Shown here piece after piece: positions 21,291 to 56,982 of a DNA stretch of 64,000 nt (position 1 is the stretch's first letter; each line of letters begins with the position of its first letter). The translations under genes were made by a program, and so were the position numbers. The stretch lies in contig OX485806.1 of assembly GCA_950295325.1 (NCBI GenBank), positions 31,496,001 to 31,560,000 of the forward strand, read 5' to 3'. The notes beneath the pieces are model-generated. The model ran no database searches. It was not told the origin of the DNA and saw only the letters and a list, made by a program, of their open reading frames with translations. Source of the DNA: Polytrichum commune (Eukaryota > Streptophyta > Polytrichopsida > Polytrichales > Polytrichaceae).

Positions 21291-21336
21291 CTATTTTGCG
21301 AGCAGTGAGCAGTAAGCGGTGAGCGGTGAGCGATAA
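21291..21336. repeat. Left terminal inverted repeat of the outer element
   Basis: It reads CTATTTTGCGAGCAGTGAGC and continues with heptamers GAGCGGT, GAGCGGT, GAGCGAT. The reverse complement of 56936-56982 reads GCTATTCTGTGAGCAGTGAG and continues similarly to GAGCGATAA. The exact outer border and any target duplication are not resolved. Confidence 0.65.
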
Positions 21337-21991
21337 GTTTTTCTTTTTTTAGTTAAAATAATCGTTTAATGTGCAGGGTATATTAAAAAAATCATTGTTT
21401 TGCAAATATATTTCCAATTATAGTAAATTTTGGGACCTATGCCCGTGGAAAATTCCTCCACAGTGATCGTTGCAAAGTTCTTTTTGCGATGTTTTTAGGG
21501 TTTAGGGAGTCGAAATCAATATTGACAAACATTGTGGAGTATTTCTATGTAGCAAAATTAAATTACATTGGCATCTTTTGAGATCCGTGAGATTGAAGAT
21601 GAATTCAAGAAAAGTGGAGATATCAAACACCTAAGGTTTCTAGACTATCAGAAAGAAAATTAAATGAAGCTTCGAGGTCAACAAAAACGTTGATACATCA
21701 AATACCTCGAAGTGGCCCTTTTAATCTCACTAGTTCATGATTAAAACAGAGGCTGCATACATACATTTCTTTGAGAAGACAATGAACTCAACATCTCTAC
21801 ACAAGATTTTGTGTAATGAAGGAAACAGTAATTGATGAGTATTAAAACTAAACCATTCAAATTCAATACTGTAGCGCCTTTAAAGAGTGACGGTATAAAA
21901 ATACTGCACTTGGTAGTGGCCCTTTCCGTCTCACTACCTCAATTTCATTGATGTGATTGAAATGAAATTACAAGAGTACTTCATCCAAAGC
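21337..21991. other. Subterminal region of the outer element, no gene seen
   Basis: This AT-rich DNA lies between the left inverted repeat and the transposase stop. It includes GACCTATGCCCGTGGAAAAT at about 21430-21450, a version of the CCGTGGAA motif found near the ends of all three elements. No coding potential is seen. Confidence 0.45.
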
Positions 21992-24900
21992 CTAAGAGGT
22001 TGTCTGGGTCAACAATCCACTCTGAAGGATTTGCTTGACCTCATTAAAGCTAAAACTAGCAGCATGAATAAAAGTATCAGAATCAGGATCAAGTCCACAA
22101 ATTATCGTAAACACATAGTATAGGTGCTTACAATTGGCCCACTGACCGCGCTTTCCAAGTGCCTTGGTTGCCATTTCCTTGAAATTGTGACAAGTACACG
22201 CCGGAAGCTGAGAAATAGTCAAGTGGTACTGGTGAATATTGGGAGGAGAACCAGAATCCAAGGTAACAATACAGCCAAGAGCTGGGGCAGGCACCATGCT
22301 AATGTTGCGAATGCAAGCTTTTAACGTGAGAGCAGAGGCGCAGTTGTTGGCGTGACATGTGGAAGGGGCCTTACTTATGCGACGGATATTCTTCCCGGAC
22401 ATGCGCTTGGGGAACTCATCCGGAGATGCCGGAGTAACATACGAAGTCAAGTCCACGTGGGAGAGGTTGTCTTGGAACAATCGTCTTGGAGAGATTTCTT
22501 GTCGTTGAGGAAGGCGAAATCCAGCAGTCTCCAATTGGAGGATCTCCTTGCGGGTAAGGTTTGTCCCCATCTTGACAGGCCAAGTCTCAGGGACTTCAGG
22601 CCTTGATATAACCCACTTCCTGCGAGTTCCTTTAACACACCTTTTAATATCATCGTTACAAAAGAAGAATTGCAAGAGTTCTTGCTTATTCTTTCGGTAA
22701 TTGGTCATCATCCCAGTGTATGTTGGCGCAGCGGTACTCTTCCCGTCTTGAACAATACGGGCCACACACTTCTTCTTTGTCATCGCTTGTATAGCAAAGC
22801 AAGCCTTTGCAGACGTCTTAGGAAGACGTGCGATGTGCCACTTACTTTCGTCACAAGCTGATTCTTGAACTGTTGTAACATGCTGCAAAGGAGCAAGTGG
22901 GGTGACATCACTTATTCGAGTCTTGCCGTTCAATTGTTGCGGCGCAATTGGAGTTGCAAACGTTTCAGGAGATTCTGAATCAGCGGTTGGTGAGGCCGTT
23001 TGAGAGTTTTTGATGGAAGACCGCGTTTGCACTCGGGGACGAGAGATGGAGATCTTGTCAGGTCGGTGAGAGTCAAGTTCCGAACCTAGAGGAAGGTCAG
23101 CCTTCCGTTTCAAGGATAGGAAGACTTCTTCACCTTCTAAGTGTGGCGTGCGGATGCAAAACTCTTGCGCTCCGGGCATTCTAGTCACTGCTTCGTGAAG
23201 GGACTTGGTGTTGCCGGTAATCTCCGAAGAACGTTGTGCGGCACGTAACTTCAGCTCTTCCTTGGACGGGCCAGTACCAGCACGATCTCCTTTTAAGTAC
23301 TGGTAGTACGAGACACATTGCATAAATGCGCGCACGTAGTCATCAACTGTTGCAACGTATGGATCCTTACCACGGTGGCCGGATTGTTGGAGCCACTTAT
23401 TGTGCACGGTCTCGGCCAAATTGTAAGAAGGCATTTCAGCCAATTCAACTTCGTTCAAGTCCTATGGAGAAGGAGTTTAGAAAGAATCGATTAGGAAACA
23501 TGTAGGAGACGATTGACGATTGCTTTATCAATGGATGGGTAGACGTTCAATGAGCGAAGAACTTACCAATTGCATGAAGCCACCCCATTGGCGGTAGCGG
23601 AAATGCCAAAAAGCAAGCCAGAGGTCGAGTCGGGATATGGCATCCTCAGATGCGGCACCGGACGAAAGCCACCACGCGCGAATGGCAAGGTAGCGCATTT
23701 CAGCTTCAAAAATGGTCTTGGCGTTCTTGTATTGCTTGCAAAGCAATCGGTGCTGATCTTGAAGGTCGAGTCTAATGTAGGCCTTTGTGTGCTTCTCGAG
23801 GGACTGAGTCCAGTGAAAGAGGCACGTTCTCTCCTTGTTTTCCATGGGCATAGATGCATCTCCGTTTCCGTAGACAATACGGATAGCATTCCAATTGGCT
23901 TGAGCGCTATCTGCCATAAATCCTTTGAAGTTTGGTTGAGAAACGTTGTGGCGAGCCATAACAGCGTTGAGGTTTTTCCAAACCACAATTTGAGCAGCGG
24001 TATCCTCGGACTGCATGTCGCAGACGGCAATGGTCATTACTCGACAAAAGGTGGCATCATAAACATGGCACGCCATTGTAGTCCAACTTTGCACACGCTT
24101 AACATGGTCAAACATGAGCCAGGCGTTTTCGAGGTCTCCACCGGCTTGCATCCGTTTCACGAGGTCGACTCCACTACCCGGTCCTACCTCAGACATTTTG
24201 AACACAAAGACCTTGTCAGTTTCCGCTCCTTGGCCTGGAAACTTGTTCTCCTGGACATAAGGCCAGTTGCTTGACCCACGAAGTTTGGTGATGCTATCCA
24301 TAACCCCAAATCTACGGATGTATTTGAAACCCGATACAGTATTACGGATGCTAGGCGAAGTAAGGTGCTTACAACGATCAAACAAAGGTAGGAGGTCATC
24401 CACAGAGAGGAATTTTGGTTGTGAACCCTCAGGCGCTAGGAGCATGTCTCCAACTAAGTCTTTGCTAGCTTCCAAAACTAAAGCGGAGTTGGTAGCTGTA
24501 GGAGTGTTTTGAATTTGTTCACTCAGGAAGCTGGTAGTATGCTCAATGGAGTCGCGATAATCACCAGTTTTGACCGGATGGGCATGGATTCCGAAGTGAA
24601 TACAAGCCCGAGTCATAGATTCTGATCCAACTACATAATAAATCCTAGCCGGACACAAGGCAACACAATTCGGCGAAACCTTACAAATGGAACAGACGAT
24701 GGTTGAATCCTTGGGAGGCACTGTACCACACTCAAAGGGCAAAGATGAGTTGCCCTCCCACTCCGTTTCATTAATAGGTGTGGTGCGGTGTACTCGAGTA
24801 AGGAACTCACAGTCAACATTATCGCACCGTAAATGACCTAAATAGGAAGAGGTACGAAAAGTGAGACCAAAATCGTTAGAGATGTTGGACGTGATAGTTC

Positions 24901-25307
24901 GGGTCTAGGCGTGGCCATCGAAACGTTTGTCCATACCACGAAGTTGTTTCGCTACAGTCTGCCTAGCGTGACAGCTGAGTGGCGGAAATTCAAAAATGAT
25001 ATCTCCATCAAATGTAGGCGGGAGGTACTCAACCCTCTCTATTGTAATGGTATCATAATCGATTTTGGAAAGAACGTTCTTTGACCTCTTTCTGGTGCAA
25101 GTTGTTTCAGTGAATCTATGACACTAGTAGACTTGCTAGTAGACTTGCTAGTAGGTTGTAAATCGGAGTCTTTGGGCAGATATTTTGTGCTACATTTCTC
25201 AAACATGTGGCTGACATCGACATTTGGAAGAGGGCAAGAGTCTCTCAATTCATAGATAGTACGGAGTCCAGGCTCAATCTTCACTTTTCTAAGAGATGGT
25301 GTCTGAA
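21992..25307 (-). pseudogene. MULE-type transposase of the outer element, DDE and SWIM part
   Basis: This is the 3' portion of a transposase gene whose 5' part is at 42826-43609, separated by a 17.5-kb insertion. The first segment is 25307-23567, then a 105-bp intron (GTAAGT donor, CATAG acceptor), then 23461-21992. It encodes the Cys/His-rich region, the DDE core (MFDHVKRV with first Asp, GFMADSAQANWNA with second Asp, C-x2-H in RTCLFHWTQS, candidate Glu in NLAETVHNKW) and a C-terminal SWIM finger (C-x-C-x(n)-C-x-H: CTCHNF ... CKHLYYV). The intron phase matches the inner copy. It is broken by a frameshift near 25060-25085 and an in-frame TAG at about 24905 where relatives have Trp (GHxWTRTI). 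A diverged, inactive relative of the inner transposase. Confidence 0.85.
25299..25307. repeat. Left 9-bp target-site duplication of the inner element
   Basis: GTGTCTGAA here is repeated exactly at 42826-42834. Nine bases is the usual length for Mutator-superfamily insertions. Rejoining the flanks restores continuity of the interrupted transposase frame around the SSFQTQ/TPSLRK point. Confidence 0.92.
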
Positions 25308-25352
25308 CGGGGAAAGTTAGTATGCGAGCGGAGAGCGGAGAGCGGCGATTTG
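25308..25352. repeat. Left terminal inverted repeat of the inner element
   Basis: It begins CGGGGAAAGTTAGTATGCGA and continues as GAGCGGA heptamers. The shared core GTATGCGAGCGG recurs inverted at the right end. The 45226 element begins similarly (GGGGAAACTCAAGTATG). Confidence 0.88.
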
Positions 25353-26546
25353 GAGAGCGGAAAACTCCATTTGAGACATGAATTGAGAGGGGAAATGCAC
25401 CTATAACCGTGAAATTATGGGTTTAGGGTAGATCTATTTTTAGAAAATTTTATGAGTTAGGGTCTCTATTACCGTGGAAATAGAACAACATTTCCCCATT
25501 TGAAACGTTTACATATTTTTGAAACATATATATATTATAATAAAATACAAAATTAGGGCTTACATCACTATTACGTCATAAATACAATTACCAAACTTGT
25601 GTACTATAGTACATATCACTGTAAATCAAATAAAAATTACTATATGAAGGAAACACGAAGGAGGTATGTGAAAAGAATTCCCCACATATAGTCCACTCTA
25701 TTAATGTTACACCTATAAATGTTAACCCTTTCTAATTGTTAACTTTATTCTACTCCCCACATATTGCACACTTTTAAATTTGACTCTATATATGTTAACA
25801 AATGAAATGCAACCATAACTACTCTTTGGAAAGACTACGTTTGGCTACGTTTAGTTCTAGTGACGGAAGTGTAAGAATGGAGGCACATGAGAACTTCCAT
25901 TAGAAGGTACATGGAAACACGTTCATGTGGGTGTCCAAGTATGTGGGTTTGTTGGTGCAAATTGAGAAATATTTGCAAGTTGTGCATGCCCATGATTCAT
26001 ACTTCACCCATGATTTCTAAACTTCATATTGAATAAAGTTTTGATTGGGTTTGCAATTTTATGAATGGTATTCTCTCACAAGGACTCTTCAAAAATGCTT
26101 ATATTTATAAATGTTAAGATTTGTATATTGGTCGATAAAACAATTTTATAATTGGTAACTGTTAACACCTTAATAAATGTTAACTATGATCGTTTCCCGA
26201 GGGTTAACATTTGAGGGTGAACATTATAGAAAGTGTAGTGTGGTGTGCAACTTAAGTATTATTGAGTATTTATGATTTAGTGAAACAAGGAGGAGGTGTG
26301 TGAGGCACCAACTTTATATTTGAATGGGTGGATGCTACATTAGCGGTTAAGATTGTGAGAGGCATACCGTTTAGGGATACTTGAACTATACTTAAGGGCT
26401 AATCCACAAACTAAAAATATTTACAATAATAATTGAAAAATGCAATGCGGGTTGACATTATGGGAATGAAATAAAGAAGAGCAAGTATGAGACTTGCGCC
26501 GGAAATCTAAAAGCCAAAAATAATACAATCCAATACAAAATGGAGT
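25353..26546. other. Subterminal AT-rich region of the inner element
   Basis: No gene is seen between the left inverted repeat and the methyltransferase-like gene. Two CCGTG-containing blocks (CTATAACCGTGAAATTATGG at about 25391 and CTATTACCGTGGAAATAGAA at about 25466) match subterminal motifs of the other elements. The rest is AT-rich with short ATGTTAAC/GTTAACA repeats. Confidence 0.5.
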
Positions 26547-26748
26547 TCAAGGAATAAACTCATCCTCACTCTCCGAAGCACTTTGATCTATGTATCTAAG
26601 TACTCTTGGATCGTATCTCTCACGTGGACTAGAAGAGGCACTAGAGCTATGGGAGGAGTATTTGGCATAAGCTACTGCCATATCCTCGGCATAAGAAGGA
26701 AGTCGCATGGTAGGACTAGTCGGCGAGCCGAAGTATTGATCCATCAGA
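26547..26748 (-). other. Last exon: conserved C-terminal tail (inner copy)
   Basis: The acceptor GTGCAG is followed by a phase-2 start (Asp codon split across the junction). It encodes a tail with PSYAEDMAVAYA, a Ser-rich stretch and DPRVLRYIDQ, ending in an acidic SESEDE segment. The outer copy has PVYAEAMALAYA and DPRVLRYFDL in the same positions, showing selection on this tail. Confidence 0.7.
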
Positions 26749-26840
26749 CTGCACCAACAGAGGAGAAATTACAATTGTTAGAATACTTCCAATCAAATGC
26801 AACATACTCAACATTAAGTTTAAGATGACAACAAACTTAC

Positions 26841-27854
26841 TCACATAGATTAACTGCACCCTGTTGAGGGAGGGCATCGTCGTCGTCCTCGTCAAGGTCT
26901 ACAACGTGAGTTGGATCGACCCCTAGAGACTCCGAGGCTGCGACCTGTATTGGGTGCAAAATTTCTTCGTACAATTCCTTGTCTCCCTCAAGTGCCACTA
27001 TTGCCCTGTTAGTAGATTGTGCTGCAAGAACCGAGGCACCTACAAAGAGCAAAACAAATGAATTAGTAGAAGGTGATTGAATTGCCTAAGTCTAGAGGCA
27101 TGGGAATGTTACACAAATTACTCATACCAGTTCCAGCAGTGAGGTCACATATAATCCCGCCTGGAGGGCTAAGGCCACTGATTAGAAGCTGGAGCAGGGA
27201 CACTGCCTTCTCTTTAGGGCCCCTCCAGAATGTGTCACCGTCGTTGTGCTTGAGTGCAGTATCAGAGGTGACAATGTTGAAAAGAACGTCATCATTTGCA
27301 AGGTCAACATCTTCAAATTTGTCACTGGAAGAAATAACAAACTCCTTGGGTGGCCTAAGCAAAGGTGTGGAGAAAGATCGAACCAACACGATTGCTTTGA
27401 ATTTCAGAGTCTGGACATCAAACATAGGCCTCGAATTGTTAGCAATGTGATTGAAAGTATGAATGACTTCGAACTTGAAGAGTGGGAAATGGCTACAATT
27501 ACTCACCCGCTTAGAGTTATGCATACGGTGAGTGAGGTGTAGAGAATTAACGATGGTCCATTCCTCCTTGACCTCAAAGTTGTTGTTGTAGAGAAAGCTC
27601 AAGACCTCCTTCTTGATTTGCACACTATCAGGATAAAATAAGAGGAGTGCGCCATCGTCGTGAAGATAGCCCTGACAAAAACCAATGGTGAACTTGATAA
27701 AGTTCTGAACCTGCTTATTCCAATTTGGAACTTGCCCCGGGAATTCAGAAACTCCTGGGACAGGCAAACCATCAGGATACTCTGCAATGACGAGGTCCAC
27801 CGCAGCCTTATGCAACACCTTGCCGGAGAAGAAGAATTCCCTGGATGCTCCAAC
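26841..27854 (-). other. Methyltransferase-like exons (inner copy)
   Basis: Three exons form the C-terminal domain: 27854-27507, 27410-27128 and 27039-26841. Reading order: GKVLHKAAVDLVIAEYPDG (position of the catalytic loop), YLHDDGALLLFYPDS (a strand and Gly turn typical of the fold), EEWTIVNS, TLKFKAIVLVRS, FWRGPKEK, then PPGGIICDLTAGTG split by an intron from ASVLAAQSTNRAIVALEGD. The last part is a good S-adenosylmethionine-binding motif I followed by an acidic residue at the end of strand 2. Motif I after the catalytic region is the order of beta-class amino-methyltransferases. The usual D/N/S-PP-Y/F/W is replaced by AEYPDG. Confidence 0.6.
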
Positions 27855-28049
27855 CTAAAAAGAAAAAACCCGTGAACGGCATATCTCGAGAGGGTGCCGT
27901 TAACGAAAAATTTGATTTTCATTACCATATCAAGCATCCTAATATGACCATTAACCAAGAATTAAATGAACGTAGCGGGTCCACCTATATGACCAACCTG
28001 AAATTTCTAACCATATTCGGTCATCCTAAACCTATTAGTGCATATCCAG

Positions 28050-29230
28050 GCCATATATGAGCACCAAAAAAATAAAAATAAAAGTCCCCCGAGGGGGGTG
28101 CCGTAAACGGCAACTCTCGGGGGCACCACATATTAACCTCAAAATCTTATATTTATGAGTGTATTATGCATCCTAATATGACCATTAACCAAGCTTTAAA
28201 TGACCGTAACGGGTCCGAATATATGACCAACCTGAAATTTCTAGCCATATTGACTTACCCTCAACCTTAGAGTGCATAAACAGGCCATATTCAAGCACCA
28301 AAAAAATAAAAAATAAAACCCCCGAGGGGGGTGCCGTTAACGGCACCTCTCGGGGGCACCACATTTTATCCTCACAATCTGATATTTAAGAGTGTATTAT
28401 GCATCCTTATATGACCTTCAACAAAGACCAACATCAACTTAAGGGGGTCCGAATATATGACCAACGAGCAATTTCTATCCATATTGACTTACTCTCAACC
28501 TTAGAGTGCATAAACAGGCCATTTTCAAGCACCAAAAAAACCAAAAAAAAACCCCCCGAGGGGGGTGCCGTTAACGGCACCTCTCGGGGGCACCACATTA
28601 AAACCTCAAAATCTGATATTTATGAGTATATTATGCATCCTTATATGACCTTCAACCAAGACCAAAATCAACTTAAGGGGGTCCGAATATATGACCAACC
28701 AGCAATTTCTAGCGATATTGACTTACCCTCAACCTAAGAGTGCATAAACAGGCCATTTTCAAGCACCAAAAAAATAAAAATAAAAAGCCCCCGAGGGGGG
28801 TGCCGTTAACGGCACCTCTCGGGGGCACCACATTATTACCTCAAAATCTGATATTTATGAATATATTATGCATCCTTATATAACCTTCAACCAAGACGAA
28901 CATCAACTTAAGGGGGTCCGAATATATGACCAACGAGCAATTTCTAGCCATATTGACTCATCCTCAACCTTACAGTGTGTAGACAGGTCATTTTCAAGCA
29001 CCAAAAAAATAAAAATAAAAACCCCTGAGGGAGGTGCCGTTAATGGCACCTCTCGGGGGCACGACATTATAACCTGAAACTTCTAACTATATTGAGTCAT
29101 CCTTAACCATATAGTGCATAACGAGGCCATTTACAAGCACCAGATAAATTAAAAAAAAGTCATCCGAGGGGGGTGCCTTTAACGGCACCTCTTGGGGGCA
29201 CCACATTATAACTTTAAAATGAGATTTTCA
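28050..29230. repeat. Hairpin-bearing 235-bp tandem array, left block (intron)
   Basis: About six units centre at roughly 28100, 28335, 28567, 28804, 29039 and 29175. Each holds an A-rich tract (CACCAAAAAAATAAAAATAA), an inverted repeat with arms CCCCCGAG/CTCGGGGG around the palindrome GGTGCCGTTAACGGCACC, and a conserved spacer ending CCATTTTCAAGCACC. The block lies within the intron between the exons ending 29336 and starting 27854. Confidence 0.9.
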
Positions 29231-29335
29231 TTTGCATATTAAACATCCTAAGCAGACCATGGCGTTAAGGGAAGATGCATTTGGTGAATAGAGGAAGGTG
29301 AGCCAAATTGAATGGGAATTAAGCAAAATATTTAC

Positions 29336-30769
29336 CTCATTGAGAAAAGCAACCATGTCATCGTAAATTGAAGGGAATTTGTTGTGCTTTGTCTTATAAT
29401 CTAACATCCTGTGGAAGGAGTCATTAAGTAAAAGAACCCGAGGAGAAGCAGAGGAGGAGTTGTATGCCTGGGATGAAGACATTGTCTTGACAGCAGGTGG
29501 GATGAATCTGATGGGATTGGATTCACCAGCAACTCCTAGGCGAATACGCTTTAGAGCAGGTTCCCGCGGAGTATGTGAGATAAGAGGGTCCGCAAGTGAA
29601 TCAGGTTGATCACCGATATCCTCTGTTACTTGAATATCTTCGTCCATTGGCTCCTCAACCACCTCAGCAGCCTTCCGCTTAGATACCCGAGGCCTACTCC
29701 CTGTAGTAGCTGTCTTGCTTTTGGAGGAGCCACCCATAGGAGGTGTAGGAGATTGTGAGACAGGAACTAATGCGGCGGGAGAAGGTAAGAAAGGTTGGAT
29801 GGAGTCCCTGAGTGCGATGTCAAATGGAAGAGGCTTCTTGAACGGACAGTCCAAATACCATCCGCACTGTTGAAAATGGATTGGATCCCATGTCCTTATA
29901 ATTGCAATAGTGAACATGGAATCATGGCTTTCGATATCCAGGTAGTTAGGGAAGAAAATGGGTACCTTAAATATGGCCTTCCTCGGCAGGAGAACGTACC
30001 GAAAGTACCTGTAAAGGACCCTGCGGATAGCTTGAACGAAGAATGGTTGCTTGTCCGGGGGGTTGTTCTTGTGAGCGCCGTTATCTCCACCTAATTCAAC
30101 AAAGAATGCAATCTCCCAAAGTTGACACCTCATAGCCTCCACGTAATGGAAAATAGTTAGGATCGGATCTTCGCCATGGGGATTGTAGTCAACAACTTCT
30201 CCAAGATCTGTGAGAACACCCGAAAAGAGCTTCTCAGCCTCCACCGCAATCTGATGCCATGCGCAATTAGATATAGTATGAAATGTTAAGGTTGATTTCC
30301 ATAGCTCATTACAGGACATGCAAATGACAACATGAACTTTGAGATGAATGCTCATCTGCGCCCACCATGTTGCACGATTAAGCCATTCCGGGAACTTGGA
30401 GTCGGCGAAGGCAGTCTTGGGAAAGCGATGCGCATCCCGGATTGCCGCAGAGGAGTTCCACCTCTGGAGCCACTTAACCATCATTCTTGAAGGCATCGCT
30501 AAAGTAGCTAGCATATATAATTTCTCTTGAAGCATCTCAGGTTCATCAAACTTCTCATAATGAGCCTTCACTTCCTCTAGAAAAGCAGAATTTCATTTGG
30601 AATCCGCGACAAGCAAATGCTTCCTGAGCTCCGCGACAAGCTTATCCTCCACCTTCTTCATAGCTTTCCTAACCCATTCCTCTGCATTACGCTCCGTCCA
30701 ATTGCTAGAATCTGGGTTCTTCATCTTGTACTTGTCCTCAGCAACATGGGCAGCTTCTGCAATCTCTTG
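29336..30769 (-). pseudogene. Middle-region exons of the ParB/methyltransferase-like gene (inner copy)
   Basis: The segment starts at acceptor ATATAG with QEIAEAAHVAEDKYK and ends at AATGAG|GTAAAT. It contains LPWLQRW-like and FPEWLNRATWWAQ motifs, a block of aromatic residues (YRYFRYVLLPRKAIFKVP, then QQCGWYLDCPFKK), and a low-complexity basic and Ser/Pro linker with SKRKAAEVVEE (nuclear-localisation-like). The outer copy matches throughout (YRYFKYVLFPSKAISRSP, ERCGWYLNCPASK). No known domain is recognised. An in-frame TGA lies at 30593-30595 and the donor after TWWAQ is mutated, so the former intron (about 30351-30251) is read through in frame. Confidence 0.7.
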
Positions 30770-31088
30770 CTATATGTCAAACAAACAATACAATCAGTTA
30801 CATGAATTGCACATGCATAATTCAAATGACACGATAATATTAGAGGTTGAGGGTGAACCATGTGCGATGTTTCCCAGCCTGCTTCTTCCTTGCAGCCTCC
30901 AACATAGTCAGAGATACTAAACCCTCAAAGTAGGACAGTGGCTGGGGCGCTAGATTCTGTATGCAAAATAGCTTGTGAACTAGGTTTGTGGTGACGTGTG
31001 ATTTTTGATTCTTCCTAGAAAACCAAAATATATATTAGAATGATGCATGACTAAAAGAACAATTCAAAAGCAGGGATTAGGATCTTAC

Positions 31089-31644
31089 CAATTAACTTCG
31101 TGCAGAGCGGCTATCATGGATGGAACATCTCCTCTAGGTTCAAGGATTACACCCTCAACACAGAAATGCCAATTAATATCATGAGTGTGAAATTGTTCAA
31201 TGATAGGCATCCATGCTTGAAGCCGATGGTTCCCATCCCAAACCATGAACATCTTATTAGAAAATATCTTCAAATCGTCATATGCAAGAAGCTTCTTCTC
31301 AAATTCGTCATTCACCTCCTTCCACTCCGAAGACCACTTGGCAACCACATTGGGTGTCACGTCATTGGTGTGTCCATGGTGGTCCTCCAATGCCACATAA
31401 AAGAAACCACACCCCTCCATGTAGCCATCAATCATAAAATGAGTAGCAAGTTGAGATACATCATTTTTAAAAAACGGTCTCACAACAGGAAGAACCATCA
31501 TGCGACAAACATGGATAAAGAGACGACCCTTTTGTTTTGGTTGCCATTTAAGTTTCTCAAGCCTAGATGCGGTTGGAACGCTCTCCTTAATGGCAAGGTC
31601 GTGAAGCTTGAATTTCACCTGTCCATCTGTAAGGCGGACTTCAT
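31089..31644 (-). other. ParB/sulfiredoxin-like exon (inner copy)
   Basis: A 556-bp exon is bounded by TTCAG and G|GTAAGA. It encodes a basic strand (KGRLFIHVCRMMVLPVVRPF), a stretch with YMEGCGFFYVALED, and the signature FMVWDGNHRLQAW, ending LHEVNW. The DGNHR motif after a hydrophobic strand corresponds to the D/G-x-H/R-R motif of ParB-N/sulfiredoxin-fold domains. The outer copy keeps FHVWDGNHRIQAW. The assignment rests on motif and predicted strand pattern only; no profile search was possible. Confidence 0.55.
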
Positions 31645-31829
31645 CTGAACAAAGGTCTCAGCATCAAAATACATTAGAAGTGATAAGAACTTGTCCTTAA
31701 CTCCAAACAATTGAACTAAAGTGCACTCCTAAACCTTAAAATCAGATCAATAACCAAAACCTGAAGCTTCATAATCAACAAAGAAAAAACATCCATTGAG
31801 GGCCACCTGTAAGCGCAACGAGAAACCTC

Positions 31830-42825: not shown

Positions 42826-42834
42826 GTGTCTGAA
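42826..42834. repeat. Right 9-bp target-site duplication of the inner element
   Basis: GTGTCTGAA, identical to 25299-25307. It lies inside the 5' coding part of the outer transposase gene. Confidence 0.92.
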
Positions 42835-44478: not shown

Positions 44479-44929
44479 GTAAGTCTCGAAACTTAAAATT
44501 TTAGAACAAGAGTTGGGGCAAGCGGAACGGAAGAGGCTTTGTAGAGGCTAGTAGGGCGGGCATTGGGGAGGATAGTACGGCGGGCAGGTGCTAGTGAGAG
44601 GGTTAGGCAAGCGGTAACCCTAGAACATATCTAGCAGCACCGTAAACATTTCCAAGCTTTTGAGAGGGTGCGCAAGCTGTGGCAGATGAATCCTGCGCCG
44701 ACAACCATGGACACCAGGGAGGTCACAGCGGGCAATCAAAGAGGTAGTACATCGAGACAGCTTGGAGAGTCGTCGTCGACGGAGGTGCGCAACCTCGAGG
44801 GCGACATCGCAGGTGAGCCTTGAATCCTGAAACCCTAATAAAACTTTGCGGGTTTCTTCATGCTTCTAGCCTTCAGAAAACTTGTGCTTGTGCCTGTGGG
44901 TTGTAATCAGATTTCTTGTGGGTTGCTCT

Positions 44930-45225: not shown

Positions 45226-45619
45226 GGGGAAACTCAAGTATGTGAGCGTAGAGCGTAGAGCGGAGAGCGGAAAATATAGATTTTGTTGGGTAATTTTAGG
45301 AGAAGCAGTGCCTATTTCCGTGGAATTAGAGATAGATGGAATTCTATATTTGGAAATGCACCCCATTCCCGTGGACATAATAACCCAAAATTGTTCGAGA
45401 AACCAACGGATCCTATAGGCGTGGAAGATTGCATTTTTTATCAAACATCTTATAGTATTTGTTTCAAATGTATCATATTCCATTAGGGCTGACGTCACCA
45501 AATTTAAATCAAAATACCATACACAAAATATATTATTGGTCAACAAATTGTAGCCAACCTCAAAAGTTACAAAAATGGGTAGTCAGTTCAAGTAGCTATA
45601 TACTGTAGTTTTCGGCCAT

Positions 45620-46306
45620 CTACACCCTATTTTCCGGGCATGTCCAATATGGCCAAGATGGCCCAAAGAACATGCCATACATATTCTCCGCACCATAAGA
45701 GGCTTCCAGCTCAGTCCTTAGCTTAGCCAAAGACCGCAAAGACAAATCCCCCAACTCCGACCTCAAAATCCTCTGGAAAATTCTCGAGGTGACATGCCGG
45801 CTCTCTGAAAACAACATGAAGTTCAATTTAAACAATTTAACCAGGTTATGCTCGCGTGGCAAATACAACTCTGGCATCCCATGTGGACCCATCCTAAACT
45901 CATGCGCCGCCAGACGAAGAGCATTGTATTCCACAGTGCTATCCACAATCCGCTTCCAGGCCTTGCAACATAGCCGCAGTTTCCCGATTAAAACCAAACG
46001 GCGTTTGGTATCAAATGCCCTCTCCCGGCCAATCAAATCTTTTGCGGCACCCAACACTAAGTTGGGCACTAGTACGGACAACTGCACATCTAAATCCAGC
46101 TGCAATACGTGTGGCACATCCAAAACGAATCGGCGAGTTTTCGCGTTACCCCCTGAAACACATTGAAACACACAACCAGAATTTAATTAAATCAGAATTA
46201 ACCAACACAATTCAAATGTGGATTGAACACAAATGTTGTGGCTATAAAATCAAACAAAAATGAACTTCATAATGTAGGGCCAAATGAACTTACCTATCCA
46301 CGGCAT
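45620..46306 (-). CDS. Two-exon gene of unknown function, possibly F-box-like, captured by the element
   Basis: Exon 1 is 46306-46294 (ATG then MPWI), the intron 46293-46153 (GTAAGT...TTTCAG), exon 2 46152-45620; about 181 residues with no internal stop. The protein has LVLIGKLRLCCKAWKRIVDS, which resembles the L-x-C-K-x-W-K part of F-box domains, followed by a basic helical region and a C-terminal FGPSWPYWTCPE segment. Splicing restores a natural ATG, which supports a real gene or a recent capture of one. No homologue is seen elsewhere in the window. F-box assignment is tentative. Confidence 0.5.
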
Positions 46307-46383
46307 CTTGAATATGAGGATAGTGCTTGAGTCCTCCAATATCTCAACATGTAAATATAGACCTACCATCACAAAATCAGATT

Positions 46384-47040
46384 TGAAGTCTAAACCAACA
46401 AATTCACAATCACAAGCCAAATGCTACTGAAGGCCATTGAACCTCACAAGTTGATAATCTGGCCTAACCTCAAAAGATCAGATTTGAAGTCTAAGCCAAC
46501 AAATTCACAATCACAAGCCAAATGCTACTGAAGGCCATTGAACCTCACAAGTTGATAATTTGGCCTAACCTCAAAAGATCATATTTGAAGTCTAAGCCAA
46601 CAAATTCACAATCACAAGCCAAATGCTACTTAAGGCCATTGAACCTCACAAGTTGATAATCTGGCCTAACCTCAAAAGATCAGATTTGAAGTCTAAGCCA
46701 ACAAATTCACAATCACAAGCCAAATGCTACTGAAGGCCATTGAACCTCACAAGTTGATAATCTGGCCTAACCTCAAAAGATCAGAGTTGAAGTCTAAGCC
46801 AACAAATTCACAATCACAAGCCAAATGCTACTCAAGGCCATTGAACCTCACAAGTTGATAATCTGGCCTAACCTCAAAAGATCAAATTTGAAGTCTAAGC
46901 CAACAAATTCACAATCACAAGCCAAATGCTACTGAAGGCCATTGAACCTCACAAGTTGATAATCTGGCCTAACCTCAAAAGATCAGAGTTGAAGTCCAAG
47001 CCAACAAATTCACAATCACAAGCCAAATGCTACTCAAGAG
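46384..47040. repeat. 101-bp tandem repeat, about 6.5 copies
   Basis: Units begin near AAATGCTACTGAAGGCCATT at 46419, 46519, 46621, 46722 and onward at the same spacing. They differ at a few positions only (for example AGATTTGAAG versus AGAGTTGAAG). They lie just 5' of the two-exon gene's start. Confidence 0.92.
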
Positions 47041-47289
47041 CAAACAAAATATGAAGAGAGGCCAAGAGACGCACCTTTAGTGACGCTTGCATGAATATGA
47101 GCTTGCAACCATTTGTGGCTGATATATAGTTACCCAAGTCATTGCATTTGTTAAGGGTCTAATGTGAAAAGGGAGAAAGGTGAGGTGTCTATGATTGGTA
47201 GTATATTTGGTTTGATTGCCTTGTATTAAAGGGGTGAATCAAAACTCAAGTAGAGGATCCGGGCTAGACCACCATATGATGAACCCCTC

Positions 47290-47800
47290 ATCCAATACAT
47301 GGCCCCCTATAACTAAGACCTTGAACTAACTAGCCGAGAGCCTAAACAAACATAACCTTGAAGCTTTCACATTCATCCAAAATATGGCCCCCTATAACTA
47401 AGACCTTCACTAACTAGCCGGGAGCCTAAACAAACATGACCTCTAAGCTTTCACATTGATCCAAAATATGGCCCCATATAACTAAGACCTTGAACTAACT
47501 AGCCGAGAGCCTAAACTAGCAGAACTTGAAGGCTTTCACATTCATCCAAAATCTGGCCCCTCTAACTAAGACTCTACACTAACTAGCCGAGAGCCTAAAC
47601 TAACAGAACTTGAAGGCTTTCACATTCATCCAAAATATGGCCCCCCTAACTAAGACCTTAGACTACCTAGCCGAGAGCCTAAACTAACAGAACATGAAGG
47701 CTTTCACATTCATCCAAAATCTGGCCCCTCTAACTAAGGCTCTACACCAACGAGCCGAGAGCCTACCCAACCAAACATGTAACCACCCACATTGAAACAA
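47290..47800. repeat. Roughly 88-bp tandem repeat, about six copies
   Basis: Units share CATCCAAAATATGGCCCC, AACTAAGACCTT and ACTAGCCGAGAGCCTAAAC with moderate divergence between units. Confidence 0.88.
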
Positions 47801-47889
47801 TATCTGGTCCCAGAGCCCAAGGGATTACCCTCTCGGAGCCGAGAGCCTACCCAACAAAAAATCTAACCTCCCCCCTTCATACAAAATGT

Positions 47890-48185
47890 GGCCACTTAGA
47901 TTCCGAGAGGCTAGGCCTTTCAAGGCTAATGGACCAGATTTCGCATTGATTTGAATGTTTGAGTTAGCACTTAGTTTCCGAGAGGCTAGGCCTTTCAAGG
48001 CTAATGGACCAGATTTCGCATTGAATTGAATGTTTGAGTTAGCACTTAGATTCCGAGAGGCCAGGCCTTTCAAGGGTCTTGGACCAGATTTCGCATTGTT
48101 TTGAATGTTTGGGTTAGCACTTAGATTCCGAGAGGCTAGGCATTCAAGGGTCTTGGACCAGATTTTCGCTTTGAATTGTATGTTT
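47890..48185. repeat. Roughly 75-bp tandem repeat, four copies
   Basis: Units share TTCCGAGAGGCTAGGC, TTTCAAGG and GGACCAGATTTCGCATTG. They may be a further diverged segment of the preceding family, because the words GCCGAGAGCCTA and CCGAGAGGCTA are related. Confidence 0.85.
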
Positions 48186-48313
48186 GAGTTATGTGTCCAT
48201 TTTAGGACCTCTTGTGAAGCAATAATTGATTGATATAATAAAGATATAATCTCAATGATTATGTTTATTCCATTCAAAGTATCGTATTACAATGTATCAT
48301 TTGTCTATCAACT

Positions 48314-48779
48314 CTATTTTCGTTTTACATACTTCTTGGGTGAATCCGAGGGAGGTGGATCCGGTCGAAGCAAATCCATATAAGAAACTGTCTTATCTTT
48401 GTTTCGATCCTTCAGCGGAAGATGATGCGGCGGCAAGGTTCTCATCCGTTCGCGAAATGAAATAGACTTCGAAGATTCCCCTTCCACCTTCACCTCCTCC
48501 TCCGTTTCGTTCGATTTGTCTTCATCCAAATCAGCGTCATTCTCGGGCACATCTTCCTGCTTTTTCTTTTTTTTCACGTTGTTTTTGTTCCTCCCACGTC
48601 CTCCACCTCCATGCTTGTGTAGACTGCGAAAATGGAGTCAGGTCGTAGTCATCACTACTTCGATTTCCAGCAGCAAACGAAAATTCCGGCGATAAATTAA
48701 CCGGAATATGAAGATCTGCTAGACTTCTAATTTCCTTATCCCATCCTAATCCAGCAAACATGTCTCTTTCATCACCCAT
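48314..48779 (-). CDS. Small orphan gene, paralogue of the one at 59130-59590
   Basis: The ATG at 48779 gives MGDERDMFAGLGWDKEI, then HIPVNLSPE and DDYDLTPFSQSTQAW. The matching paralogue has MGEKKDMFEGLGCDEEI, HIPFNPSPE and DDYVMIPFSQSTQAW. After STQAW the conserved remainder (acidic region, then RMRTLPPHHLPLKDR, paralogue RRLSPHRLPLKER) continues in a different frame in both copies. The copies therefore share a frameshift, an overlapping two-ORF arrangement, or an unseen splice. The protein is small, charged and hydrophilic. It lies near the element's right end. Function unknown; conservation between two distant sites says it was a real gene. Confidence 0.5.
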
Positions 48780-49290
48780 TGTATGCAAGTGTATATACAA
48801 TGATGTTGGGTATGAGTCCAATATATAATCTATTCGGCCATAAACGATAATTGCTAAAGTCCAAGCTATAGAGTAGACTCACATATAAGACAAAGAGAAA
48901 AGTGATGAATAAAAACGAAGGAAGTTGATTATTTTGATTCCTTTGTATTTTGATTGATTCATTCTTCAATTATACCAATCTCAGAATATCCATTTTCATT
49001 GATTTTTTCTTGTAATCATCCTTGGTTTTAACAATTCAACTACCTCGCGGTCTCCAAACTTAGTGAGACCATTTCAATTTCAGGGCATTTTTGTTTCTTT
49101 TATGACCTATAATTCCCACGGAAATAGGTCCAATTTTTTTACTAAGTTTGGTAGATTCTGGAATATTCCAGGCATATTATTGTCTATTTTTGAAACATTC
49201 CTATTTTTATCAAGAAGGTTTGCTATTTTTATTTCATCTACGCTCTCCGCTCTCCGCTCTACGCTCTACACTCACATACAAGTGTCGTCC

Positions 49291-51529: not shown

Positions 51530-52073
51530 ACAATCCAAGAGATGCTCGCTCGAAGCTCCATACCATGGTCTCTAATGAGATTCCCAACACCAAATCCAGG
51601 ATTGAGGGACTTAGATTTCAACCGAGGAACAAGTCCAAGATCTTCATTCCTCTTTGTCGAATGGTTTGTCTTCCCGTGGTCTGTCCCTTCCTTAAGAATG
51701 ATGTCCGGAAGTTGGCTTCGCATTTCCAGGAGAACAGTTACATGGAAGGTAATGGTGTTTTTTATGTTGCCCTGGAGGATAATGAAGGCAAAACTTCAGA
51801 CATTTCCGAAGAGATCATTTCCACTTGGAGTCAACATTGGGTGACAGTGAACAACGAATTTGAGGCCATGCTAGCCGCCGATCCAGTTCTCCAAGTCTTT
51901 TGTGGGAAGATGTTCCATGTTTGGGATGGCAACCACCGCATCCAAGCTTGGATGCCAATTATCAACAATGACCACCTGGATGACATTTCTTGGCATTATA
52001 CGGTCGAGAGTATTATTCTCGTTGTGAATGGGGATGTTGTATCCATGCTCACTGCCTTACACGAGGTCAACTG
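51530..52073 (+). other. ParB/sulfiredoxin-like exon (outer copy)
   Basis: Bounded by TTTTCAG and CTG|GTATGT with the same phases as the inner exon. It encodes SKIFIPLCRMVCLPVVCPF, YMEGNGVFYVALED, FHVWDGNHRIQAW and LHEVNW. The exon itself has no stop. Residues conserved between two diverged copies centre on DGNHR, as expected for the ligand or nucleotide-binding motif of this fold. Confidence 0.55.
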
Positions 52074-52166
52074 GTATGTTCTCATTGCAATCACAGGCTC
52101 TCTTGATTCCATCTCATTTTTTTCATGATACCTCATCTCTAATTCCATCTTGATTTTCTGCCACCA

Positions 52167-53965
52167 GGGAGAAATGAAAATTCATATGTGGTTGCAAACC
52201 TTGTGCATCGGCTCTACCACACTCAGAGTCTTGCCAAACAACCAGTGGAGTTCTTCAAGTCCTTGGTGTCTCAAGATGAAGTTCGAGCTGCGGAGACAAA
52301 ACAAAAGAATCCTAAAACCAAGACTTGGTTCACCCTTACAACTGCATCGCTCACCTCCATACTCTACCAGGTTCAATTATTTTGATAGTCTTCCTATGGT
52401 TTCATTCCCACTTTTCTCTTCCTCCATATTTATATGTTACACGTATTACTAATATCCTTATTCCTTGCTTTTCAAATGTGTCAGCAAGAAATTGGAGTGG
52501 TTGCAGCATCTGCAGAGCGGAAATTTTATGATCGATATCCAAACCCTGAGGACTGGACATCTCAACCCGTTGATGACATCGTTGGTAAGGCGGTTACACG
52601 TGCCAAGGTGCATTTCAAAAGTGAGTTGAAGAAGATCTTACCAATTGTTGATCCTCAGAACACTCCTGCTTTTCTTGCCGAAGTAAAGACTCATTATGAG
52701 TGTCGTGATGACGGTGTTGAGATGAAGTTAGAGAAGTTGTGGATGTTGGCTGTGTCTGCCATGGATCCTTCCATGAAGGTACTTTGGCTTGAGCGCTGGA
52801 ATCAGCCTACAAGCCTTCGGGTGCAACTGAAATTCCCCAAGCAAGGTTTCAACGATGACGCCTTTTACACTTGGCTGAATAAGGCAACATGGTGGGCTCA
52901 AGTATGTGATTCTCTACCTGCCCTCTTTGTTGAGTTCTCAAAAATTGTTGTTGAACTTTCATCTTCATTGCTAGTCCATTGCAAATTTGTTGTCTTCTGT
53001 GTTCATAACTCCTCTGTCTTGCTATGCAGTTGGCAGTGGAAGCACAAAAACTTCTCGATGGTGTCCTGCGTGATCAAAAAGCCACCATCAATTACCAACC
53101 TGATGGCCGGGATCCAATTCCCACCATTTTTTATTATATTGAGCAAATTCGCATTTCATTATGGGACACGGCATTCTTCCGCGAATTCGCAGTGGAAAAA
53201 GGAGTGAACAAGAACAACAGTATCGACAAGCAGTACTTGTTCAAGCCAGCATTACACCGTCACTTGTACCGGTACTTCAAATATGTCCTCTTCCCCTCCA
53301 AGGCTATCTCTAGATCCCCTCCCTTCTTTGTTAATTTCTTGGAGATAGATAGTGAGGATTTCATGCTCACTGAGGGGATCATGAAATCATGGGATTCTGT
53401 GCACTGGGAGCGATGTGGTTGGTATCTTAACTGCCCAGCTTCGAAGGCCCCTTCGTTTGACATCGCTCTTTGGGACTCTATCCAACCACCTTCCCTTCGA
53501 ACTGGGACTCCCTCGGATACCGTCGACACTCCGCTTGAGGTGCTTGCCAGTCAACGGCCGGCCTCAAAATCCAAGAGGCAACCGAGGCAGAAGAAGGCTC
53601 CCGTTTCTGATTAGGTTCAGTGGGCCACTTCCCCAGTTGTGACACCGCCCCTCTTCTCTGCACCAGATGTTGCACATACTTCAAGTGCATCTAGACTTCC
53701 TGCATCACCTCCGAGTCTTTCAGTACTTCCAGCAGAGCCAATTACGAAGCGCCAGAAAGTTGATGTCCCGGAGTCCAGTACGGCCACCACGTTCTTGTCT
53801 CCCCCTAAGCGTCATCCCATGAAGATGAAGGCTGTTGCATTGTCAAGCGCATTTACTTCTCAGCAACTTCTTGTAAATGATTCTTTTGTTTGAATTGTGG
53901 AGGAGAAGACAATCACTGGAAAGTTCAGCACCAACTACGCCGACATTGTTTACTTTCTGAACAAG
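52167..53965 (+). pseudogene. Middle-region exons (outer copy)
   Basis: Exons 52167-52370, 52485-52901 and 53030-53965. Conserved features with the inner copy: NLVHRLYHTQ, TWFTL, QEIGVVAASAE, WLNKATWWAQ, YRYFKYVLFP, WERCGWYLNC, and a basic Ser/Pro-rich linker ending KRQPRQKKAP. An extra G at the first acceptor throws the frame out; TAG (53612-53614) and TGA (53891-53893) interrupt the last exon. No known domain recognised. Confidence 0.65.
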
Positions 53966-54100
53966 GTTTTCACTCCCCCTCATTTTCCAATTCACTACAA
54001 CATTGTAGGTTGGTAGTTGGATTTTTGTGGCATTGGATATTTTTTTCAATGTCAAGTTCTAGCTCGGAACTCCCAGGACTTACATTCCTTTCCGTTTTAG

Positions 54101-56394
54101 GTTGGTAGTGGACACCACTTCTACTTTGATGGCAAACTCATTCAAAAACCTGCAGTGGACTTGCTTATTGCTGAGTACCCTGACGGGCAGAGAGTTCCTG
54201 GAGTTTCTAATCCCCCGTCTCAGATCCCACCTTGGAATGAGTACTCCGATTCTTTTCTTCAAGTGACCATGAGATTTGCATATTCCTACTTGCATGACGA
54301 TGGAGCCTTCATTCTTTTCTACCCCGACAGTTCCATGGTTCGCAAGGAGATTTCATCATTTTTCAAGAATTACAAGATGAAGGTTCTTGACGAGTGGACC
54401 ATCATCAATTATTTGCACCTTGCCAATCCCCTCGTGCCAGCCAAAAATGTTTGTTTCTTGTCCTTCTCTCTTTCCTACTATTTTAACTAAGTTTTTACTT
54501 CTCTTCCGATTTTTCTTCTTAAGAGTTAGCTAATTGTTTGATTTACCTTTGCAGACTTTGAAGTTCAAGGCTATTCTTATAGTCAGATCTGTCCCTACTT
54601 CTGAGGCTAGGCAGCCAAAGAACCTCACGATCACTCCAGATCCTTCAGTCCCTCAGGTGGACTTAGCGTGTGATGATGTCCTCTTCAATCCTGTCACATC
54701 CGAGTCCCAGTTGATTCGTAAAAGCGATGGTTCGCCATGGCGAGGCCCGAAGGAGAAATCGGATGTTCTCATAAAGCTCTTTATGCATGGATTATGTCCT
54801 CCAGATGGTATTGTCGCCGACCTAACCGCTGTCGTGATGTGGGCGGTCTATTAGTTAGAATTTAGATATTTTATTTGTTTTCATTATTTTTAAAATTGAT
54901 CTTAGTTAGGTAAAAACCGGTCTTAAGTTGAAGACCAGATGAATTGGTAGATGGATGTGGTAGGTAGGATTGAATTTACCGGCGGGCCAATAGCTAACCA
55001 CCTAGGAGTTCTAGAAGGTTTTTAACTTTAAATTCCTATTGGCTTGCCGGATTAGCCTTTAGCCCCAAACGTCCTATTTCTAGCGGGATTAAGGTTCTAG
55101 AAACCTTTAACCCCATATCTTTCCTATTTCTAGTAGGATAAGGATTCTAGAAACCTTTAACCCCAAAGGTCACCCATTAGCAAGCCACTTGGAGGGGTTC
55201 TAGAGGACCTTACCTCGATGGTTTCCTATTGGCCGAAGGGGGGCAAGGTGGAAGACTATTTAAGGGGTGTTAGAAGAATGTTTAAGGGGACCATAAGTAT
55301 TTTGGAGTTGTTACTTGTGTTGGATTGAGAGAGCTTAGAGCATCGTGAGAGGGATAAGTGCTTAGGAGGCTCATCTACATAAGAGGGTGTGGAGGTGTGG
55401 CATTTAGAGTGACTAGATTGCACTAGGTGCACTACTTGTTGAGTTTATTGGTTATGAACTTGAGCAGAACTTTATAGTGAAAGATTTGTCAATTATGGAT
55501 GATCGGAGTGTTCAATGGATATGAAAATTTGAAAGATTGTTTATTATGAATTATGGAAGTTGTGGTAAAAATTTGAGAGCTTCAGTCATTGGCATGAAAA
55601 AATTATTAAGAGTTGAAGGGAAGGGTGTCTAGGAACAAAGCCAACTAAACTAGCAAGATTTGAAAATATGTATCTTTTAGAGAGTTATAGATATGGATAC
55701 CAAAATTTGACACCACCTTTTGAACTTACACATCTATCTTGTGTTAAAATCTGAAATTTATTGGACATAAGATTAGGAAGTTATTAAGGTTTTAGAGACC
55801 GGGTGTTTTATCACAGCATTCATGCTAGGTAGTTAGAGTTAGAATATAATGCATAACTTTTGCATATGAACTCTGATTGTGCTCAAATTTGGTGAGAATG
55901 TTTTTGATAAGGTACTTAATAAGTGTACCAAATTTCACTTGAAGAATATGAGTTGGTTTTGAATTATACTATTCTGAAGTTTAGAGGGATCACATTAAGA
56001 GAGATTTACATCAAGAGTGTAGGAGAAGGAAAGCTATTATATTTTTTTTTAAACACTACCATAAAATAGAAGCCCGGCGCTTACCGGATAGTGCATATTT
56101 TCCTTGATACCGCTTCCACAGGTACCTCATACCCACTTCTTCTTCATTTTTAATTTTTAATTTTTATACCATGTTTCATGTCCTAATTTATCTCATTACT
56201 CCAGGAGCTACTATTCGCGCAGCCCGTGCATGTAACCGCCACATTCTGGCTTTAGAGAGCGACTCTATGTTCTTTTCTGAAGTCCTTGAACCCCTGGCAG
56301 TTCCACCTCCAAATGCTTCGAGTTTCTCTACTCCGGGCGACCTGATTGATGATGACGAGTCCATTCCAGATGCCCCTTTGTACGATATATGTGA
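54101..56394 (+). pseudogene. Methyltransferase-like exons, split by an LTR insertion (outer copy)
   Basis: Exons 54101-54448, 54555-54829 plus 56109-56121, and 56205-56394. They encode KPAVDLLIAEYPDG, YLHDDGAFILFYPDS, DEWTIINY, TLKFKAILIVRS, PWRGPKEK, then PDGIVADLTA, interrupted, and GATIRAARACNRHILALESD. Joining across the insertion gives DLTASTG in place of the inner DLTAGTG. Apart from the insertion these exons have no stops, in contrast to the middle region. Confidence 0.6.
54830..56108. mobile_element. Probable solo LTR inserted in the motif I exon (1.28 kb)
   Basis: It begins TGTCGTGATGTGGGCGG at 54830 and is flanked by the 5-bp duplication ACCGC (54825-54829 and 56109-56113). Removing it rejoins the exon in frame (DLTA|STG). 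The start looks like a plant LTR; the 3' end lacks a canonical CA, so the right border may be off by a few bases or mutated. It has TATTTAAGGGGTGTTAG (55257), a possible TATA-like site, and no coding sequence. Confidence 0.65.
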
Positions 56395-56492
56395 GTAAGT
56401 CCACGCCTTCGTTGGTTGACATTGTTTTCTATTTATCTCTTAATTGTAATCCATCCTTTGTCCATCTCTAAATCTTGCTCTGAACATGGCAG

Positions 56493-56727
56493 TTTGACAA
56501 ATCCAGGGAGACCGCTACGAACTCCACCTTCAACTTGGTACTTTCCGTCGCCGCCCCCAAGTCCTCGTGGCTTACCTGTATATGCTGAAGCCATGGCCTT
56601 GGCGTATGCCCATGGTAGCTCTGGGAATTCGACATCCTTCTTCACTCCTAAGAATCATGTTGATCCTCGAGTTCTACGCTACTTTGATTTGGAAGCAGTG
56701 TCGAGCTCTCTATGTAGCAGTGATTGA
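56493..56727 (+). other. Last exon: conserved C-terminal tail (outer copy)
   Basis: Acceptor TGGCAG, phase-2 join giving an Asp codon as in the inner copy. It encodes a Pro-rich part (PPPSPRGLPVYAEAMALAYA), a Ser-rich stretch and DPRVLRYFDL, and stops after SLCSSD. Confidence 0.65.
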
Positions 56728-56935
56728 AGTAATGGCGACCTTCTTGATCATACAAAGTATCTTGAGCTCCCATGAATTGTCACGGATATAGGCCCCTTTA
56801 ATAAAAATTGTGTTCTACAACTTTCAAGTTTTCAGTGAAAACCGCGGTCATAGAGCTCAAAAGTTTTCAAATTCTTGCTCTATTCCTGATTATAGTGCTT
56901 CATTTTCAATAAAAAATATCTAAAAACTGTACAAG

Positions 56936-56982
56936 TTATCGCTCACCGCTCAACGCTCACTGCTCACTGCTCACAGAATAGC
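56936..56982. repeat. Right terminal inverted repeat of the outer element
   Basis: TTATCGCTCACCGCTCAACG and onward to CTCACAGAATAGC. Its reverse complement parallels 21291-21336, including the tandem heptamers and the GCTATT(C/T)TG end. Confidence 0.65.

Follow-up and report, generated by a model that had tools for sequence, protein, structure and literature searches.

Two-gene transposons and the Polytrichum commune locus

The closest described counterparts of the element family examined here, represented by two nested Mutator-like elements (MULEs) in a 64,000-nucleotide stretch of the moss Polytrichum commune (contig OX485806.1, positions 31,496,001 to 31,560,000; hereafter the window), come from algae and from Arabidopsis. 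In Ectocarpus, the transposon Sola1-1_Ec32 carries a gene with ParB and methyltransferase parts opposite to the transposase, and similar proteins are reported for green and red algal transposons, with Iyer 2011 and Petroll 2025 cited (PMC12477816). The accessory gene of the moss elements, here termed gene 2, is likewise one gene (1,104 amino acids [aa] in Ectocarpus), ParB-like and N4/N6 methylase-like, placed opposite to the transposase of a large DNA transposon, but it sits in a MULE, is swapped between elements, and has palindromic repeats in its introns, and the canonical catalytic motif is absent from the copies read. The preliminary description of the locus held that no such two-gene element had been described, which is too strong given the published Sola1 gene. 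ParB and methylase transposon genes are thus already reported from algae (PMC12477816), and the MULE version is a variant. No other description uniting a MULE with ParB and methyltransferase was recognized by title or abstract in the literature covered, most subscription journals lying outside that coverage. As a group, MULEs have target site duplications (TSDs) of 8 to 11 bp and may carry accessory open reading frames (ORFs) (PMC6446971). The antisense MutB of Mutyl (PMC6446971) and mudrB of MuDR share with gene 2 the standing of second gene in a two-gene MULE. In the VANDAL MULEs of Arabidopsis, the transposase is more conserved than the accessory protein VANC, whose targets often form tandem repeats, also within VANC21 introns (PMC5735166). 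Gene 2 resembles VANC in being a MULE accessory gene less conserved than the transposase and in the occurrence of type-specific motifs in tandem repeats, including those in accessory-gene introns, whereas VANC has DUF1985/DUF287 and gene 2 has a methylase-like domain.

In both window elements, a transposase with a SWIM finger (gene 1, two exons) and the multi-exon gene 2 lie back to back, each gene facing its own end of the element, as first described. A MULE is defined by a DDE transposase with C-x2-H and N-x-AES motifs, and the elements have TSDs (9 bp in the inner window element and 9 to 10 bp in E1, a further element used for comparison), terminal inverted repeats, and DDE motifs, of which FDH, MADS, TCxFH, and NLAES/NLAET were recognized by eye in the alignment and the exon 2 sequences. 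The E1 terminal inverted repeats are 86% identical over 37 nt, with GAGCGGN-type arms. Pfam matched no family at E up to 10 for the 403-aa transposase core and the 494-aa exon 2, and gave no MULE profile at E up to 1 for 33 aligned transposase members; the SWIM pattern CxC..CxH is visible by eye.

The inner element (25308 to 42825, no strand assigned) has exact boundaries at its gene 2-side end (25308) and its transposase-side end (42825), inverted ends of the GAGCGGN type, and a perfect 9-bp TSD, GTGTCTGAA, at 25299 to 25307 and 42826 to 42834. It sits inside the N-terminal part of the outer transposase and thereby interrupts the outer element (21291 to 56982, no strand assigned), the arms of which (21283 to 21355 and 56917 to 56989) are 82% identical over 73 nt; a comparison of about 50 bases per end, allowing a single mismatch, found no outer TSD. 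Gene 2 can be aligned between the two elements one exon after another, and so can the transposase; the inner and outer copies are 51 to 55% identical in the best-conserved exons, and exon structure and protein reading agree. A third copy, previously placed at 18185 to 19984, is real and truncated; it extends to about 20927 and belongs to the E1-type subfamily. Its remains (18110 to 20927) comprise the N-terminal part of the transposase on the minus strand and, on the plus strand, a fossil inner-type exon 1 and an E1-type exon 1.

A methylase-like protein with an altered motif IV

Gene 2 has at least nine exons, and its product, some 1,000 residues long or longer, consists of a basic N-terminus, a ParB-box region, and a beta-class DNA-methylase domain. 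The C-terminal domain appears to be a relative of N6/N4 DNA methylases, a view supported by Pfam N6_N4_Mtase (PF01555), which matched E1 above the curated cut-off of 26.7 bits (E 9.5e-7, 29.4 bits) and the inner copy 0.1 bit short of it (E 6.9e-6, 26.6 bits), these two spliced domains being the ones scanned whole. In the beta class, motif IV comes first and the S-adenosylmethionine (SAM) motif I later, and gene 2 has this same order. The SAM motif I (DxxxGxG) is present as DLTAGTG in the inner copy and DINAGVG in E1 (DINAGVGTS...HIVALEED) and is looser in other families (DLTASTG, DLTCSTG, DVTASSG). Motif IV was read in 18 of the 23 gene 2 copies (L013, L021, L022, L023, and L026 were left out), and the catalytic form [DNS]PP[YFW] occurs in none of the 18. 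The 14-row alignment gives EYPD nine times, DLPE three times, and DYPD and QFPD once each, and the four further copies have AYPD (L010) or EYPD (L011, L016, and L020), such that in all 18 the first proline and the final aromatic residue are missing and position 4 is acidic. Because this change is common to gene 2 types that are only about 35 to 40% identical, it is a property of the family and not the decay of single copies. A comparable case by description, not by homology, is METTL14, the methylase-fold partner without catalysis in a host-cell RNA methylase complex, in which the fold is likewise retained and the catalytic tetrad is degenerate (EPPL).

It had been suggested that gene 2 modifies the DNA of the element, and an active DNA N6-adenine or N4-cytosine methylase marking its own element would be consistent with both the N6_N4_Mtase homology and the recognizable SAM motif I. 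Such a role was also suggested for the Ectocarpus gene by its authors (PMC12477816). We nevertheless consider active methylation doubtful and this explanation unlikely, because motif IV is altered in every copy that was read.

The assignment of the ParB-box region was examined as well. A DGxHR box is the hallmark of ParB N-terminal (ParB-N) domains, and the box [DE]GNHRxxAW is found in all 18 rows of the alignment, GNHRxxAW being invariant. With E up to 1, Pfam gave no match to ParB-N (PF02195) in a set of 18 members or in one of 48, and weak matches to CB_ParB_C in 2 of 48 (best E, 0.089). The ParB-like phage family phrog_1033 matched weakly in 3 of 18 and 7 of 48 members (best E, 0.046); NCBIfam gave no ParB support for the ParB-box region. 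Structure models built from the window sequences alone reached a predicted local distance difference test score (pLDDT) of 33 to 35 (34.5 for the ParB-box region) and are too poor to use, a fold search with one low-confidence model found no match at E up to 0.001, and a PDB sequence search returned nothing convincing (best E of 0.03 to 0.04, unrelated proteins). In the earlier label of a ParB/methyltransferase-like gene, then, the methylase half is borne out by Pfam homology and the ParB half is a motif-level call that the profiles do not confirm. When the spliced 1,028-aa product of gene 2 was used as query, no protein matched at E up to 10, probably because the length window of the search excludes exon-sized entries. 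A search with the ParB-exon alignment returned 831 relatives at E up to 10, and the sole organism-named entry among the 120 matches listed, from the moss Ceratodon purpureus, is 56% identical to the inner ParB-box exon. Viral contigs contained no gene 2 match.

Pairing and exchange of gene 2

The genome (408 Mb in 64 contigs) was searched with the inner ParB-box exon (151 matches from the best 150 of 1,178 candidates), the E1 ParB-box exon as a second gene 2 type (150 matches, scored out of 1,134 candidates), and the transposase core (135 matches, scored out of 1,797 candidates), and the two gene 2 lists and the transposase list are all lower bounds. The union of the gene 2 lists holds 276 places, 4 of the 150 E1-query matches having been omitted as second pieces of listed exons and some exon pieces still being counted separately. 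Among the matches listed, to which all the counts of this section refer, a gene 2 ParB-box exon lies divergently within 25 kb of 79 of the 135 transposases (median distance, 7.5 kb), compared with an average of 1.1 pairings, and never more than 6, in 200 trials of random placement. Within the same distance, convergent gene 2 exons were found at 5 of 135 transposases and same-strand exons at 7 of 135, a control that also covers the clustering of elements. It is clear from these results that the pairing of transposase and gene 2 exceeds chance. Among the 50 transposases with an open frame of 750 aa or longer, 36 have a divergent partner from only two gene 2 queries, and the stretches upstream of known gene 2 copies (six of 20 copies fetched) contained a divergent transposase in six of six cases, with the N-terminal part only in L032. 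The gene 2 stretch L020 also contains a convergent transposase. Our data therefore support the claim of an integral and selected gene 2 in this MULE family. The 85 transposases that matched the query at 90% identity or more are accompanied by inner-type gene 2 in 22 cases, E1-type in 27, another type in 3, and none listed in 33. Transposase copies without gene 2 at first seemed to refute an integral gene 2, as 40 of 135 were paired within 40 kb when one gene 2 query was used; with the E1 query, 27 of these 85 pair with E1-type gene 2.

The accompanying claim, that gene 2 is vertically kept within the family, is not supported by our data. Both genes, compared as transposase and ParB exon, were available for eight elements, and the identities conflict. 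The inner element and E1 are 95% identical in the transposase and 37% in the ParB exon, L031 and L034 are 94% and 43% identical, respectively (L031 with half of the columns), and the inner element and L029 show the opposite direction, with 86% for the transposase and 95% for the ParB exon. The transposase and gene 2 trees are discordant, and approximately unbiased (AU) tests went against both: run on gene 2, they rejected two groupings of the transposase tree (p 0.030 and 0.003), and run on the transposase, two groupings of the gene 2 tree (p 0.0002 and 0.032). These p-values lean towards rejection because the groups were picked after the identities were known and E1 is long-branched. At the DNA level (blastn, E up to 1e-5), the transposase halves of the inner element and E1 match at 92% over 4,467 bp, and an adjoining stretch of 658 bp matches at 73%. 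Two further matches lie at the gene 2-side end (510 bp at 80% and 440 bp at 74%), and there is none across the body of gene 2. Moreover, in addition to its own first exon, E1 contains a fossil one of the inner type (54 aa matching at 74%), and the third window copy has the same two first exons. Matching flanks, an unmatched gene 2 body, and a fossil exon are the signature of a cassette replacement, and gene 2 has thus been swapped between elements as a cassette.

The exchange bears on the remaining explanations. A role as transposition helper, as for mudrB or MutB (with which we know of no domain resemblance in gene 2), for example in joining the ends or loading the transposase, is in keeping with the frequent pairing. 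An antisense second gene, MutB, is also listed for one MULE group (PMC6446971). However, a subunit of the transposase would be expected to evolve in step with it, and since transposases that are 94 to 95% identical carry ParB exons that are only 37 to 43% identical, we regard the helper as improbable, to about the same degree as the active methylase. It is considerably less probable that the discordance reflects very fast evolution of gene 2 without any exchange. The high divergence among gene 2 types, the similarly rapid evolution of VANC, and the long E1 branch in the gene 2 tree would fit, but the L029 and inner elements show the reverse pattern, and the fossil exon in E1 and the matching flanks on both sides of an unmatched gene 2 body speak against it. 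The most remote of these explanations is that gene 2 was captured from the host and is a chance passenger in the manner of Pack-MULEs, since, even though MULEs often capture genes and a nested element at about 45226 to 49290 contains other coding-like sequence, gene 2 is divergently paired across families, occurs in several types that are all paired with a transposase, and is under purifying selection.

This selection is evident in eight comparisons of the nonsynonymous to synonymous rate ratio (dN/dS), which lies at 0.07 to 0.13 for four ParB-exon pairs (dS 0.65 to 1.2), at 0.17 for one more (dS 0.38), and at 0.09 to 0.17 for three methylase-exon pairs (dS 0.46 to 0.51). Four further comparisons had saturated dS and are little informative.

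Palindromic repeats and the proposed role of gene 2

The introns of inner gene 2 contain tandem arrays of 234-bp units. The first occupies the intron that separates the N-terminal exon from the ParB-box exon (31888 to 36424, in two parts, 31888 to 35261 and 35679 to 36424), and most of its units contain the 18-bp palindrome GGTGCCGTTAACGGCACC or a near variant; the second, at 27927 to 29212 in a later intron, contains GGTGCCGTTAACGGCACC as well. In L017, a palindrome of 26 bp is found in units of about 107 bp, with two full copies and one of 18 bp, and it has a 12-bp core, GCCGTTAACGGC, in common with the inner palindrome. The ParB exons of these two copies are 57% identical with saturated dS, and the retention of the core at such divergence suggests function. 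The E1 palindrome, CTGTCGGATCCGACAG (16 bp, in 170-bp units), differs from the inner one despite the 95% identical transposase. L022 has two near matches to the core of the inner and L017 palindromes, L014 a related imperfect palindrome, and L033 four exact copies of GCAGAATTCTGC, for which TRF reports no array. Fewer than 0.003 palindromes would be expected per repeat unit. Tandem arrays as a universal feature of the family were considered and rejected, as they are absent from some stretches. Long palindromic tandem repeats (GTTTGGGTCGATCGACCCAAAC) also lie outside one copy, past its transposase and gene 2 ends (L029, 6828 to 7029; L009, 883 to 1301).

These elements form a large two-gene MULE family, and we propose that gene 2 may encode a factor that, in the manner of VANC, binds the element carrying it and protects it, a reading on which our belief and doubt are evenly balanced. 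The transposase moves the element, and the gene 2 protein would bind sites within its own element, for which the palindromic repeats are candidates, acting as an element-specific marker or anti-silencing factor with a logic like that of VANC. The methylase domain might serve as a SAM-responsive DNA-binding scaffold or as a non-canonical enzyme, and a cassette swap would then alter which elements are recognized and leave the transposase unchanged. A more specific version, which we put forward tentatively and hold to be less probable than the general proposal, is that a catalytically altered methylase has become an element-specific module reading the palindromes in its own introns, with gene and repeats being swapped to evade host silencing or a rival factor.

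Several observations weigh against the proposed binding and protecting factor. Palindromes of 12 bp or longer that occur three or more times were found in only 8 of 29 fetched stretches, which cover parts of elements, and in the inner element (L028, with repeats of N and TA runs, was not counted), and no repeated palindrome was found in the outer window element. In L029, one of these eight, the repeats lie beyond the transposase end. Since the repeats are in or beside gene 2 introns, they could also travel with gene 2 without needing a function. The ParB label comes from one motif and the ParB fold is putative, and the methylase could be active despite its changed motif. Recent copies gave a dN/dS of 0.26 to 0.62 in eight comparisons, and many copies are therefore decaying; the lean in the AU tests belongs here as well. 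The largest gap in the case for a constant gene 2 lies with the 56 of 135 transposases that have no partner in the two lists, 14 of which have long open frames (at least 750 aa), and because at least three gene 2 types exist and the lists are lower bounds, these 56 are shown neither to lack gene 2 nor to have it. Finally, binding and anti-silencing are roles that we infer from sequence-level data.

The coding sequences in the window are damaged, and copies with open exon frames are present elsewhere in the genome. The inner transposase (plus strand) begins with an ORF at 38604 to 39203 that is 77% identical in amino acids to the third copy, is frameshifted near 39194, where the third copy continues in frame, and comprises the rest of exon 1 (39194 to 40708), with two catalytic Asp residues and C-x2-H, and exon 2 (40807 to 42291), with the Glu motif NLAES and the SWIM CxC...CxH, both identified by eye. 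The outer transposase (minus strand) has exon 2 at 21992 to 23461 (52% identical in amino acids to the inner one), exon 1 at 23567 to 25090 with one in-frame stop, and its N-terminal part beyond the inner element, at 42826 to 43882. This N-terminal domain is doubled in tandem at 42827 to 43882 (40% and 37% identical to the inner one) and single in the inner and third copies.

Inner gene 2 (minus strand) starts with the basic N-terminal exon at 36842 to 37183 (ends not fixed), relatives of which occur in the outer element, the third copy, L029, L030, L032, E1, and, weakly, L033. It continues with the exon bearing the ParB-like box MFxVWDGNHRxxAW (31089 to 31644) and exons at 30843 to 31014 (normal donor missing), 30356 to 30769 (one in-frame stop, donor GT lost), and 29336 to 30250, followed by the exon with the altered motif IV (27507 to 27854, AEYPDG replacing xDPPYx), the exon ending in SAM motif I (27128 to 27410, CDLTAGTG), the rest of motif I/II (26841 to 27039, ASVLAAQSTNRAIVALEGD), and the last exon (26548 to 26748). 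Outer gene 2 (plus strand) has its N-terminal exon at 44176 to 44493 (ends not fixed) and a body of eight exons at 51530 to 56727, namely 51530 to 52073, 52168 to 52370 (acceptor frame off by one), 52485 to 52901, 53030 to 53965 (two stops), 54101 to 54448, 54555 to 54830, 56205 to 56394, and 56493 to 56727, with an insertion of extra sequence at about 54831 to 56204. Close to where the E1 transposase begins, and on the same strand as it (L035, 7953 to 8039), is a short piece resembling the ParB box (LSGKMFYVWEGN), which is also present in the third window copy, within 19718 to 20110, and was probably left behind by a rearrangement. Some known gene 2 copies have a second, different ParB-box exon nearby (L019, 2806 to 3312; L025, 2663 to 3091), which shows how densely the elements are nested.

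Within the outer element, the nested element at approximately 45226 to 49290 has GAGCGGN-type ends and a 9- to 10-bp flanking repeat, GCTCTTAAG(G), which is ambiguous as a TSD because the surrounding 53-bp tandem repeats contain the same letters. It contains tandem repeats and coding-like stretches, with an F-box-like look by eye at 45620 to 46186, and may be a Pack-MULE. Elsewhere in the window, an ORF of 2,086 codons (8409 to 14669) resembles by eye a Ty3/gypsy-type polyprotein, and an ORF at 10036 to 10425 recurs with unchanged protein at 714 to 1103, which is therefore part of a second such copy upstream. The ORF at 61414 to 61806 looks by eye like a fragment of a piggyBac transposase (RGVDVADQLRGYHTVQ).

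Transposons with anti-silencing genes are known, and few of them are understood. The moss elements place ParB and methylase transposon genes in a second transposon superfamily and in a host lineage other than algae. If the role proposed here for gene 2 is correct, the family would provide a testable case of prokaryote-type methylase modules turned into sequence-specific element markers, and its exchanged gene 2 types would constitute a natural set of DNA-binding specificities.

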